Positions 18,467 through 23,222 of a DNA stretch of 64,000 bases are shown one piece after another (the first letter of the stretch is position 1; each line of letters starts with the position of its first letter). The notes beneath the pieces were generated by a model. The model saw only the letters and a list, made by a program, of their open reading frames with translations, searched no databases and was not told the origin of the DNA. A program made the position numbers and the translations under genes. Origin of the DNA: Asticcacaulis tiandongensis (GTDB lineage Bacteria; Pseudomonadota; Alphaproteobacteria; Caulobacterales; Caulobacteraceae); assembly GCF_006475605.1 (NCBI RefSeq), contig NZ_SSBC01000019.1, forward strand, positions 186,001 to 250,000, written 5' to 3'.

Positions 18467-21463
18467 ATGAAACGTACAATCTTAGCCACGGTTTCCGTGG
18501 CGGCGCTTCTGGCGGCTGGTGCCGCTTCGGCGCAGAGCACGAACAGCGTATCGCTGGTTAATCAGACCGGTACGGGCGCAGAGGCTACGGTTACTCAGAC
18601 CGGTAACGATCAGGATTCTAAAATCCAGCAAGCCGGTAACCGTAACATTGCCAATGTAACCCAGGCGAACGACGGTAACACGTCGTTTGTTGAACAAAGC
18701 AACGCTAATGGTTCAGCGATCAACAACAGCGCCATTGTCAACCAGCAGGGTGCTAACAGCAGCTCTACGGTTGAACAGACGGGCCGTACCGGTCGTGCCA
18801 ACGTACAGCAGCTAGCTACGGCGGCCGGTGCTGAGAGCACTGTGACCCAATCGGGTCGTGATGAGCGCGCCAGCGTTCGCCAACTGGGCGGCGCGGCTGA
18901 ATCCACCATCACTCAGGCCACCACTGGGCCGCAAGCGGCCAATGCGGCGGTTTATCAGGATGGCGCCAGCTACTCTGAGATCAATCAAACCGGCAGCCAT
19001 AACGAAGCCAGCGTTCGTCAGGAAGGCGAAGGCAACACGTCTTTGGTTAATCAGTCCGGTCACAATGGTGCCGTGGGTGATCCGAACAACAACTATGGTG
19101 ATGTTGAGCCTATTTCTCAGCTTGGCGTTTATCAGGTTGGTAATGACAACGACTCGACGATCAATCAGTCGGCTCGTGACAATACGGCTGATGTGGTCCA
19201 GACGGGTGATTTCAACTTCTCGGATATCAATCAGTCCGGTGACCGCGCTGAAGCGGAACTGACGCAAACTGGTAACGACAACGACTCGTGGATCCAGCAA
19301 AGCGGTGCAGATGCCGACGCTTCTGTACTTCAGGCGGGTAACGCCAACGCTTCGACCGTAACGCAAACGGGCGCGAATGCTGAGGCGGTTGTTGCACAAA
19401 CCAGCAACAGCAACACTTCGGTCGTTCTGCAACAGTCCGGCGCTTCTGCCAATGTTTCGCAGACCGGCAACAACTCGCTGGGTTCGCGTACCTGGAACGG
19501 CACCGACCTGCCGACTCACCCCGTCGTGGGTACGGCTGCGGGCACGTCCTATGCTAACAACGTATCTTTGATCACGCAGGACGTAAATGCTGATGGTGCT
19601 TCGGCTACTGTGGATCAGAATGGGGCGCTGAACCGTTCGAACATTGTTCAAAGCGCAGCGGCTGAAGCCGATGTGACGCAAACCGGCACCTACAACACCT
19701 CAGTTGTGGATCAGGATGCGGATGGTCAATACGCTGAAGTAAACCAAGGTGGTTCTTTCGGTCGTAACGCTTCGCGTATCGAGCAGAATGCGGGCGCAGC
19801 CGGTGCTGAGGCCTATGTCTCACAAACCGGTCAGCAAATCCGCGATCCGAATGCGCCGACCAACACCTCGCTGATTGAGCAAAATGCTACGGCCTTTGCT
19901 TCGGTGAACCAAACCGGTGACCAGAACCACTCGAACATCGCTCAGCACAATGTTTCGGAAGCTTTCGTAACGCAAAACGGTGCAGGTAACGATTCCGACG
20001 TGTTCCAGGGCCCCGGTGGCGCTCTGGTCAGCGCGACGGTTGATCAGAACGGTAATGACAACAAATCAGACGTCTGGCAATCAGGTAACGGTGCGCTGGC
20101 CGATATAGACCAGACCGGTAATGACAACCTTTCGGCTATCCACAGACAAACCGGCAATGGCGTAGTCGCCAATGTTGATCAGACCGGCGACGACAACCGT
20201 TCAAACATTGATCAAACCGGTAATCTGGCGGCTTTCTCGGTTGAACAGACCGGTGATAACAACCAGTCTTACACCACGCAATCCGGTAACGCTGTAGCCG
20301 CTTCGGTTGAACAAACCGGTGACGACAACGAGTCTTATGTTGATCAGCTCGTTCCGGCTAACGGTGCGCTGGCCTCTGTTACGCAGAATGGTGACGACAA
20401 CTATTCCAAGGTCACGCAGCAGGGTAACCTGACGGCAGCTGCCGTTTCACAAACCGGCACCGACAATGGTTCGACTGTGACGCAAACCGGCAATCTCGCT
20501 GACGCTGAAGTTACGCAAAACGGTGACAACAACGGTTCGACTGTGACGCAATCGGGAACGGGTGTGGTAGCAACCGTTGATCAAAGCGGTTCGCTGCATA
20601 CTTCGGACGTTCTGCAAACCTCGGCAACCAATGTCGCTTCGGTTACCCAGTCGGGTACTGACAACGACTCGAAGGTTGACCAGGGTGGCGGTCTGTTCGG
20701 TGTTGGTTTGCACAATGCGACGGTAGAGCAGCACGGTGATGCGGGTATGTCCCAGATCACGCAACGGGGTTCGGCTCAGACGGCCTTTGTTACCCAGCTT
20801 GCAGGGGGTTCGGCTAACGAATCCGTCATCAATCAGGGTGCAAACGGAACGGGCTTCCTTGGCATGAGCGGTCTCGGCAGTGCACAGGAAGCGATTGTGT
20901 CGCAAGGTGGTGTCAGCGATTATTCGTCGATCACACAACGTGGCACCAACCAGTATGCTGATGTCACCCAAAACGGCAGCGACAACGAGTCGTTCATCTC
21001 ACAAGGTAACAACTCAGGTCGTGATCATGACGCGGTGGTTGTACAGACGGGCGCTAACGGCAAGTCCGACATTGAGCAACTGGGTCGTAACCAGTATGCC
21101 AGCCTGACCCAGGGTGGTACGTCCAATGACTCGACCATTGATCAGAATGGCCGTGACCACAGCGCTACTGTAACGCAAGGCGGCGCAGACAATGTTTCGC
21201 TTGTCAGCCAACTTGGCACGGGTAACACGGTTCTGGCTTCGCAAACCGGTAACGGAAATAACAATACCGGTGTTGCCGGTGCAGGTATCTTCCAGAACGG
21301 TGTAAGCCTGTCGGCAACGCTGAACCAGGAAGGCAGCAGCAACTGGTCGCTGATCTCTCAGACCGGTACAGGCAACAGTGCTACCAACAACCAGCTGGGT
21401 AATGGCAATACGTCTACCATTACTCAAGGTGGTTCGGCTAACACCGCACTGGTTAACCAGTAA
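18467..21463 (+). CDS. csgA: Giant curlin-repeat protein, probable major curli subunit
   Basis: A 998-residue secreted amyloid-type protein. The signal peptide ends near AASAQ (residue 23). Nearly the whole mature chain is built of 11-residue curlin half-repeats of the form AxVxQTGxxNx alternating with SxIxQxGxxNx; I count about 80 by eye, that is about 40 strand-turn-strand units. E. coli CsgA has five such units in 151 residues. Non-repeat inserts occur near residues 205-220 and 340-365. The chain is rich in Gln, Asn, Gly, Ser and Thr, with few charged residues and no Cys after the signal. The ATG follows GGGAG at 8 bases; an earlier TTG in frame is rejected. It lies between csgG and csgB. 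Confidence 0.92.
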   Translation: MKRTILATVSVAALLAAGAASAQSTNSVSLVNQTGTGAEATVTQTGNDQDSKIQQAGNRNIANVTQANDGNTSFVEQSNANGSAINNSAIVNQQGANSSSTVEQTGRTGRANVQQLATAAGAESTVTQSGRDERASVRQLGGAAESTITQATTGPQAANAAVYQDGASYSEINQTGSHNEASVRQEGEGNTSLVNQSGHNGAVGDPNNNYGDVEPISQLGVYQVGNDNDSTINQSARDNTADVVQTGDFNFSDINQSGDRAEAELTQTGNDNDSWIQQSGADADASVLQAGNANASTVTQTGANAEAVVAQTSNSNTSVVLQQSGASANVSQTGNNSLGSRTWNGTDLPTHPVVGTAAGTSYANNVSLITQDVNADGASATVDQNGALNRSNIVQSAAAEADVTQTGTYNTSVVDQDADGQYAEVNQGGSFGRNASRIEQNAGAAGAEAYVSQTGQQIRDPNAPTNTSLIEQNATAFASVNQTGDQNHSNIAQHNVSEAFVTQNGAGNDSDVFQGPGGALVSATVDQNGNDNKSDVWQSGNGALADIDQTGNDNLSAIHRQTGNGVVANVDQTGDDNRSNIDQTGNLAAFSVEQTGDNNQSYTTQSGNAVAASVEQTGDDNESYVDQLVPANGALASVTQNGDDNYSKVTQQGNLTAAAVSQTGTDNGSTVTQTGNLADAEVTQNGDNNGSTVTQSGTGVVATVDQSGSLHTSDVLQTSATNVASVTQSGTDNDSKVDQGGGLFGVGLHNATVEQHGDAGMSQITQRGSAQTAFVTQLAGGSANESVINQGANGTGFLGMSGLGSAQEAIVSQGGVSDYSSITQRGTNQYADVTQNGSDNESFISQGNNSGRDHDAVVVQTGANGKSDIEQLGRNQYASLTQGGTSNDSTIDQNGRDHSATVTQGGADNVSLVSQLGTGNTVLASQTGNGNNNTGVAGAGIFQNGVSLSATLNQEGSSNWSLISQTGTGNSATNNQLGNGNTSTITQGGSANTALVNQ

Positions 21464-21510: not shown

Positions 21511-21646
21511 GGACTATCGGGGGCGCTGGCCGATGCGGCTGGCGTTCCCTCTTTTCATTTTCAGATACTTGTATGTCACCATGTTCACGCTGGCCGGTTT
21601 GTGGTAAACCGGATAGGGTGTGGGCATACGAACAAAGAGAATTATA

Positions 21647-22219
21647 ATGCGACACAGGTTGATCATGACCGCGGCCTTACTGCTGATGCCTTTGGGCACG
21701 CAGGTCGCCGCCGCCGATAACGGGGTTTATATCACTCAGGTTGGAGACGCCGTGGCGGCGTCACCCGCGGGTGGAAGCGCTTCGGTTGTCACACAAGCGG
21801 GTGAGCGTAATTATGGACAGGTGGATCAGAAATCTGCCGGTCAGATTGGTGTGGTGGCGCAGGCCGGTATTGAAAACTATGCCAGCCTGAGCCAGTCGGG
21901 CGGGGTTGAGGGCAACCTCGCGCTGGTTTTGCAGAATGGCGTGGGTAATCAGACGACGCTTGAGCAGAACGCCAGTACCTTGAGCAACAACGCAACGATT
22001 GTGCAGAATGGTGCGGGCAATGTGGCCTCGCTGGCGCAGAATGGCGATCAGAATTCGGCGCTTATGGTGCAGAACGGCGACAACAACCTGATGCAGGTCG
22101 CGCAAAACGGCGATAATAATAATATCGTATGGACCCAGACGGGGTCCAATCTGGCGCAGCCCAAGGTCGAAATGGTTGGAAACCAGACGCTTTCAATTCA
22201 TCAGTTAGGCTTCAAATGA
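21647..22219 (+). CDS. csgB: CsgB-like minor curlin (probable nucleator)
   Basis: A 190-residue secreted protein. The signal peptide ends near VAAAD (about residue 23). About 12 curlin half-repeats follow (ASVVTQAGERNY, ASLAQNGDQNS, LMQVAQNGDNN), less regular than the giant curlin, with an early Lys (QVDQKSAGQ) and a C-terminus ending HQLGFK, whose basic residue recalls CsgB. Nucleator function is inferred from size, divergence and position. The start at 21647 (MRHRLIMTAALLLM) has AAAGAGA before it. Its stop overlaps the next start (ATGA), so the two are coupled. Confidence 0.85.
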   Translation: MRHRLIMTAALLLMPLGTQVAAADNGVYITQVGDAVAASPAGGSASVVTQAGERNYGQVDQKSAGQIGVVAQAGIENYASLSQSGGVEGNLALVLQNGVGNQTTLEQNASTLSNNATIVQNGAGNVASLAQNGDQNSALMVQNGDNNLMQVAQNGDNNNIVWTQTGSNLAQPKVEMVGNQTLSIHQLGFK

Positions 22220-22902
22220 CCGGTTCTGCCTCTCTTTTACTGCTGATGCTGCTGAGCGCGCAACAAGGGGGGGCGGTGTCTGGGAATGCCGGTGCCGAAA
22301 GGGTTGGCGTCGAGCAACTGGGTACGGGGCAGCGAACGGATGTGGTCGGTTCCGAGCAGATCACGACGCGATCACGTGAGGTTCCAGCGGCGCCTGTGGT
22401 TATTCGCAGCAGCGCCTCCAGTCAGTTAACCGAGGGTAAGCCACAGGTGAACACCTCACAGTTAACCTCAGATAAGCCGACGGCTGATGCGCCGGTTTCG
22501 GGATCTACGACCAAACAGGGACGTAATGTGCGCGCAGAGATTCTGCGTGGGGACGACCGGTGTGATCCGCAAAACAGCGCAGAACGTGACGAGGCCTGTG
22601 ATCGGGTAATCGAGACGCGTTCGGCTGAGTTTTCCGCGCCGGATGTTCAGCCGCTTTCGCCGGAGCAGAACCTTATGGTCAGGCAGCAATCGCTGGCGGA
22701 TTCCGGACGCGATCTGAATTCGGCTACGCGACGACTGGCCAATGGCGAGATTGATTCCTCCAATGCGCATCTGGCGGTTTCGGCCATGGCGCTGGTGCCG
22801 CCCAAGCCTGCGGAAGAGGAAAAGCCGGGGCAGGATATGTCGGCGAATGACGCTATCGTTTCGGCCATAGTCAGTGGCATGCAGGGCACGCCCTATCAGT
22901 AA
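22216..22902 (+). CDS. Unknown secreted protein of the curli operon
   Basis: A 228-residue protein starting at the ATGA overlap with csgB. Residues 4-20 form a short hydrophobic signal (ASLLLLMLLSAQQGGA), followed by one curlin-like motif (RVGVEQLGTGQRTDVVGSEQ). A polar Ser/Thr-rich linker leads to a two-Cys module, DRCDPQNSAERDEACDRVIE (about residues 114-133), that could form one disulphide in the periplasm. A helical tail follows. I do not recognise a family. Its translational coupling to csgB, its place before csgH and its curlin-like element point to an accessory role in curli assembly, perhaps an adaptor or a third subunit; this is inference. Confidence 0.8.
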   Translation: MTGSASLLLLMLLSAQQGGAVSGNAGAERVGVEQLGTGQRTDVVGSEQITTRSREVPAAPVVIRSSASSQLTEGKPQVNTSQLTSDKPTADAPVSGSTTKQGRNVRAEILRGDDRCDPQNSAERDEACDRVIETRSAEFSAPDVQPLSPEQNLMVRQQSLADSGRDLNSATRRLANGEIDSSNAHLAVSAMALVPPKPAEEEKPGQDMSANDAIVSAIVSGMQGTPYQ

Positions 22903-22919
22903 TCTAAGTGGAGACGCGG

Positions 22920-23222
22920 ATGGATGCGAATGTCAATGCCCATCTGGAGATGGTGCAGGCCGAGCGGGGCGTGGCTGTAAGCGCCTATGTGGCGTCACCT
23001 GAAACCAGGCCGGTGCGCTGGAAGCTGGAACTGAAGTCGCAGAGTGCCGGCGGCAGCAATAATATCGCGCAGGGCGGTGTGGTGGCAGGCGAAAAGACTA
23101 GCCCCGTCAGCTCCGTTGTGGTGACGCAAGGCAGCCGTGGAACCGTGACGCTGCTGGTTTACGAGGGTGAGCAGGTCGTGGCGCGTGATGAAATCGTATT
23201 TGGTGAGCCGTCGGGCGGTTAG
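22920..23222 (+). CDS. csgH: Curli assembly inhibitor/chaperone CsgH (alphaproteobacterial CsgC equivalent)
   Basis: CsgH is a small immunoglobulin-like beta-sandwich that keeps curlins from fibrillating in the periplasm. The 100-residue product has the family pattern: VRWKLELKSQSAGGSNNIAQ, then GGVVAGEKTSPVSSVVV, then TVTLLVYEGEQVVARDEIVF. The ATG at 22920 has GGAG 6 bases before it; a GTG at 22908 would add four residues. The oddity is that no signal peptide is present, and a TAA at 22905-22907 in this frame rules out a longer N-terminus, although CsgH should act in the periplasm. It ends 2 bp from a convergent glycosyltransferase. Confidence 0.82.
   Translation: MDANVNAHLEMVQAERGVAVSAYVASPETRPVRWKLELKSQSAGGSNNIAQGGVVAGEKTSPVSSVVVTQGSRGTVTLLVYEGEQVVARDEIVFGEPSGG

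Follow-up and report, generated by a model that had tools for sequence, protein, structure and literature searches.

The 64,000-nucleotide stretch of Asticcacaulis tiandongensis DNA analysed here (the window) carries a real, intact and very long curlin gene, an ATG-initiated plus-strand open reading frame of 998 residues, located in a complete and otherwise ordinary alphaproteobacterial curli operon. The order of genes is csgF, csgG, giant curlin, small curlin, an unnamed gene for a 228-aa protein and csgH (Table 1), and this is the single curli locus of the genome, with no other PF07012 locus. From its sequence and context the giant is quite probably a CsgA-type elongating subunit of curli, which would be secreted unfolded and form one solenoid outside the cell.

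Table 1 Features of the curli operon and of the giant curlin (window coordinates; residue numbers refer to the giant curlin)
Feature	Position	Strand	Basis
csgF homologue, 152 aa	16748..17206	+	PF10614, E 4e-31; PDB chains of E. coli CsgF
csgG homologue, lipoprotein of the outer-membrane secretion pore, 345 aa	17206..18243	+	PF03783, E 7e-55
Giant curlin, 998 aa, ~80 half-repeats	18467..21463	+	PF07012; motif count vs shuffles; AlphaFold model
Putative Sec signal peptide of giant curlin, MKRTILATVSVAALLAAGAASA	18467..18532	+	Read from sequence; N-terminus conserved in relatives
Insert 1 (non-repeat), residues 197-218	19055..19120	+	Motif gap, low pLDDT
Conserved block (insert 2 and following repeats), residues 316-463	19412..19855	+	Profile, alignment
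Insert 2, residues 333-364	19463..19558	+	Alignment; loop in continuous solenoid model
Insert 3, Pro-containing arc, residues 454-467	19826..19867	+	Alignment
14-pair terminator-like stem-loop separating the two curlin genes	21519..21549	+	Consensus match only
Small terminal curlin, 190 aa	21647..22219	+	PF07012, E 1e-10; divergent WTQxG tail
228-aa operon protein, signal peptide, two conserved Cys	22216..22902	+	~30 operon-linked homologues
csgH homologue, curli chaperone	22908..23222	+	NF041112, 40.6 bits (cut-off 35)

The Pfam profile PF07012 aligned to the giant curlin in 24 separate stretches (E = 3e-70). A non-overlapping count of the strict half-repeat motif, defined as [ASVTGL]x[VILFYAT]xQ, gave 77 occurrences, with 52 neighbouring pairs spaced at exactly 11 residues, while 2000 shuffles of the same protein produced a mean of 20.8 motifs (maximum 32) and 0.44 such spacings (maximum 5). 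Visual inspection added three imperfect strands, at about residues 556, 590 and 972, for a total of 80. Of the 66 pairs of close neighbours, 63 alternated between the two strand types, A-x-V-x-Q and S-x-I-x-Q; the alternation was maintained over both large inserts, and the C-terminus of the protein is itself a repeat strand. The sequence-only reading had claimed about 40 repeats, or some 80 half-repeats, in strict alternation; the curlin profile, the excess of motifs over shuffled sequences, the alternation of close pairs and the strand number of the structural model described below all bear this out. The N-terminus, as read directly from the sequence, is a plain Sec signal, MKRTILATVSVAALLAAGAASA-QS, with a basic start, a hydrophobic core and ASA-Q. 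In the mature N-terminus, QSTNSVSLVNQTG, no targeting sequence of the E. coli N22 type could be recognised by eye; according to PMC10192328, an N22-like sequence is the outlier and not the rule.

An AlphaFold model of the whole chain contained 78 strands (mean pLDDT 70.7, pTM 0.57), was weak at the inserts and had pLDDT below 50 over most of the last 70 residues. Its breaks (residues 197–219 and 334–364) were non-strand and of low confidence, so that interruptions anticipated from the sequence near residues 205–220 and 340–365 were recovered at approximately 197–219 and 333–364. A fragment model of residues 220–500 (281 residues; pLDDT 85.1, pTM 0.85) placed 11 strands on either side of a low-confidence insert. 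A structural aligner, run on chains preselected by Foldseek, returned the curlin 8c50 as the top match of this fragment (Z 27.5, 241 residues, rmsd 8.0 Å), the second-best match reaching Z 14.7. Foldseek itself gave nothing significant for the whole model or the fragment, and whole-model matches to other beta-helices were taken as generic. At the sequence level, giant curlin and 8c50 matched with E = 1.6e-19. The predicted fold, based on the fragment model and its match to 8c50 and more weakly on the whole-chain model, is a two-strand beta-solenoid, and the fragment model supports a solenoid that is continuous across the main insert. From this model and the A/S alternation we infer continuity over all 80 strands; the earlier idea of one very long beta-solenoid is thus supported by the number of repeats, by their alternation beyond the inserts and by the fragment model. 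With a rise of 4.8 Å per rung, the giant chain corresponds to ~19 nm and E. coli CsgA to ~2.4 nm.

Assignment of roles to the two curlins could not be made from family models, as both the CsgA and the CsgB model of NCBIfam scored above cut-off on the giant owing to its curlin repeats; it was read as CsgA-type from its size, its position and the lack of the tail found in the small curlin. This tail is a degenerate repeat, xWTQxGxxLxxLxIxQxGG...ITQ. A W-x-Q-x-G motif near the end was present in 36 of 45 terminal curlins vs 2 of 121 upstream curlins, which end in clean strands (e.g. NTATVTQG); our reading of the table is that for the two upstream exceptions (L051 and L079) the wrong gene had been picked automatically as the last one. 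The last repeat of E. coli CsgB is likewise degenerate and has been linked to CsgF binding (PMC10192328), and on the strength of a degenerate last repeat like CsgB repeat 5 the small curlin is likely a CsgB-type nucleator.

In the proposed mechanism, the giant curlin would cross the inner membrane via its Sec signal peptide, would be kept from folding in the periplasm with the help of the chaperone CsgH, and would leave, still unfolded, via the CsgG pore capped by CsgF. The small curlin would nucleate it at the cell surface, the chain would fold strand by strand into one solenoid of ~40 rungs, and the conserved loops would protrude from it. With each added subunit, the fibre could then reasonably be expected to lengthen by the full ~19 nm at once. 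The terminator-like stem between the two curlin genes could set an excess of the giant.

The CsgG of the window aligned to the E. coli CsgG chain with E = 2e-54. Its constriction loop reads RPSETGQTLSRAV in place of KPYPASNFSTAV, and the aromatic ring residues of the E. coli pore (Tyr51 and Phe56) are therefore absent. A non-E. coli loop was seen in all alphaproteobacterial loci examined, including those of Rhizobiales and Rhodobacterales, where curlins are less regular and mostly smaller; the loop thus tracks lineage and not curlin size, and a special adaptation of the pore to giants was rejected. Nor did we find reason to retain the suggestion that subunit size alters handling by CsgG, CsgF and the nucleator, since both CsgF and CsgG are ordinary members of their families and giants in two orders are served by the same operon. 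To describe the giant as a pre-assembled fibre segment would be misleading, because the narrow pore of E. coli CsgG, which limits the passage of folded proteins (PMC6957492), implies export in the unfolded state. No PF10627 (CsgE) match was found in the whole genome, and absence of csgE is usual in Alphaproteobacteria (PMC3521004); the long chain tests the passage of a ~976-residue unfolded substrate via CsgG without CsgE. Elsewhere in the same genome, a second CsgG-like lipoprotein gene (L091:8526-9539; C10:1325639-1326280; PF03783, E = 1.5e-52) has no curlin, csgF or csgH alongside.

A CsgF search of named genomes yielded 49 loci. In Caulobacterales and Sphingomonadales, csgF and csgG are usually followed by between one and four large curlins (mostly 26–67 strict strands), a small curlin of ~200 residues and a member of the 228-aa family, and in some cases by csgH. 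Large curlins are thus common in relatives, and a giant limited to its own genome was rejected; among 177 different curlins, the most strict strands were counted in a congener (79) and in the window protein (77). The 228-aa family shares the core GxDxC...C...ExRxxEF...LSPEQ, in which both cysteines are invariant, and a strand-like V-x-Q-x-G at the N-terminus; the window member had no match in Pfam, NCBIfam or PDB.

The inserts of the giant recur at fixed places in related proteins. An insert that contains GD is present in the consensus of relatives at insert 1, insert 3 lies at the same position in their alignment, and insert 2 carries the aligned motif LGxRxWxGxxLPxxx...YANNVSLI (also as LGxRxWxGxxLPP), modelled as a loop with pLDDT of ~45–56 inside the continuous solenoid. 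Around insert 2, the window giant has a ~150-residue Pro/Trp insert block in common with giants from Sphingosinicella, Sphingopyxis, Blastomonas and Erythrobacteraceae. The profile of this block scored 185 in the window giant and 140–224 in 12 other members, values that are high by construction, as members are the twelve sequences building the profile plus one close copy; the evidence for the block is consequently the gap to other curlins (71–119 in six more divergent relatives, mostly or all below 60 in the remainder) together with the position-specific motif. In two congener giants the insert position is kept and the inserts are shortened. Almost no match to the block was obtained in 289 sampled alphaproteobacterial genomes, which points to a restricted distribution, and its status as a class-wide feature was rejected. 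We propose that the insert block and operon order are fixed, while repeat number drifts as diverged units are gained and lost.

It is conceivable, if on balance rather unlikely, that these giants form a distinct subclass whose fixed loops display a binding site read by the 228-aa operon protein; if true, the amyloid would be a decorated scaffold rather than a plain polymer. Unlikely, in our judgement, is a role of the giant as a decorated structural adhesin, a stiff solenoid rod whose conserved Pro/Trp inserts would serve as functional binding loops for a polysaccharide, the 228-aa protein or a surface, with fibre polymerisation being secondary. Conservation of the insert block across two orders while repeat number varies would fit such a function, as would the location of the operon inside an exopolysaccharide cluster in this genome. 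However, congener operons sit elsewhere without those flanking genes, no adhesin domain is recognisable in the giant chain, and its end in ordinary repeats suits head-to-tail growth.

In a CsgG tree, the window sequence and those of two same-genus carriers formed one group (support 100/96), which joined Hyphomonadaceae and Aquidulcibacter at 99/97. Within the genus, csgF was present in just 3 of 25 genomes, and the operons of these three had no flanking genes in common; the operon therefore appears to be acquired, lost or relocated as a whole. The three same-genus giants were 39–47% identical, with large gaps in the alignment and different repeat numbers. This patchy carriage, together with congener repeats that are not collinear in number or order, might be taken as the mark of a curli operon that is silent or in decay and survives in few species, the size of the giant then resulting from relaxed selection on repeat number. 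We hold this to be very improbable, as every gene of the operon is intact, the 80 strands retain both the motif residues and the A/S alternation, and CsgG, CsgF and the 228-aa gene are conserved between congeners. As a separate observation, csgG homologues were found on Sphingomonas and Sphingobium plasmids (L108, NZ_CP101724.1 and L109, AP027335.1; 67.5% and 55.5% identity), the first of them next to a gene annotated as csgF, and plasmids may thus serve as vehicles for curli operons.

Tandem Repeats Finder detected no DNA tandem arrays in the giant-curlin gene, the longest exact repeat within its 3 kb was 18 bp, and its regular 66-bp units had mean identities of 47% (DNA) and 39% (protein). 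Ordinary reads would neither collapse nor inflate repeats so short and diverged, and an independent congener genome has its 79-strand curlin in the corresponding place of the operon; an assembly artefact, to which a repetitive protein in a draft genome of 22 contigs might have given rise, was accordingly rejected as having next to no probability, and the repeat count read from the sequence withstands this objection.

The operon shares with the E. coli CsgA/CsgB system the curlin repeats, CsgG, CsgF, two unequal curlins and a degenerate last repeat in the putative nucleator. It differs in the lack of CsgE, in having CsgH instead of CsgC, in the position of the small curlin downstream of the giant, and in ~40 repeats compared to five in CsgA. 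With the operons of Dueholm 2012 (PMC3521004) it has in common csgF, csgG, curlins and csgH, and the absence of csgC and csgE; the longest curlins in that survey had 22 repeats, and CsgA and CsgB were separable in Gammaproteobacteria only. The best match in both sequence and structure, Pontibacter korlensis R15.5 (PDB 8c50), is described in PMC10192328 as a long curlin whose 15.5 regular repeats form an untwisted left-handed solenoid, whereas the window giant has ~40 and conserved inserts. In published surveys, CsgA homologues range from 4 to 62 repeats (PMC10192328) or from 3 to 52 (PMC12822426), and since ~40 repeats fall inside both ranges the giant is long yet not unprecedented. Neither the insert block nor the tail marker of nucleators nor the 228-aa protein is described in the portions of these surveys consulted here.

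Length is hence the tail of a known continuum; what is newer is the insert block, together with the marker of nucleators and the operon family that lacks annotation. Among functional amyloid subunits, the giant stands at the upper end of the sizes found in nature, and the tail marker, the insert block and the operon protein provide three testable handles for alphaproteobacterial curli, in which major subunit and nucleator were indistinguishable before.

Two further observations were made alongside. In contig C15 of the same genome, an operon (L092:1783-4446) reads as hfaA-hfaB-hfaD, holdfast anchor genes, probably indicating a holdfast-bearing relative of Caulobacter. Finally, loci from metagenome-assembled genomes labelled Flavobacteriaceae and Microbacterium (L080 and L081) have a curli operon that hardly differs from the one in Qipengyuania flava, and on account of this near-identity they look misbinned or mislabelled.
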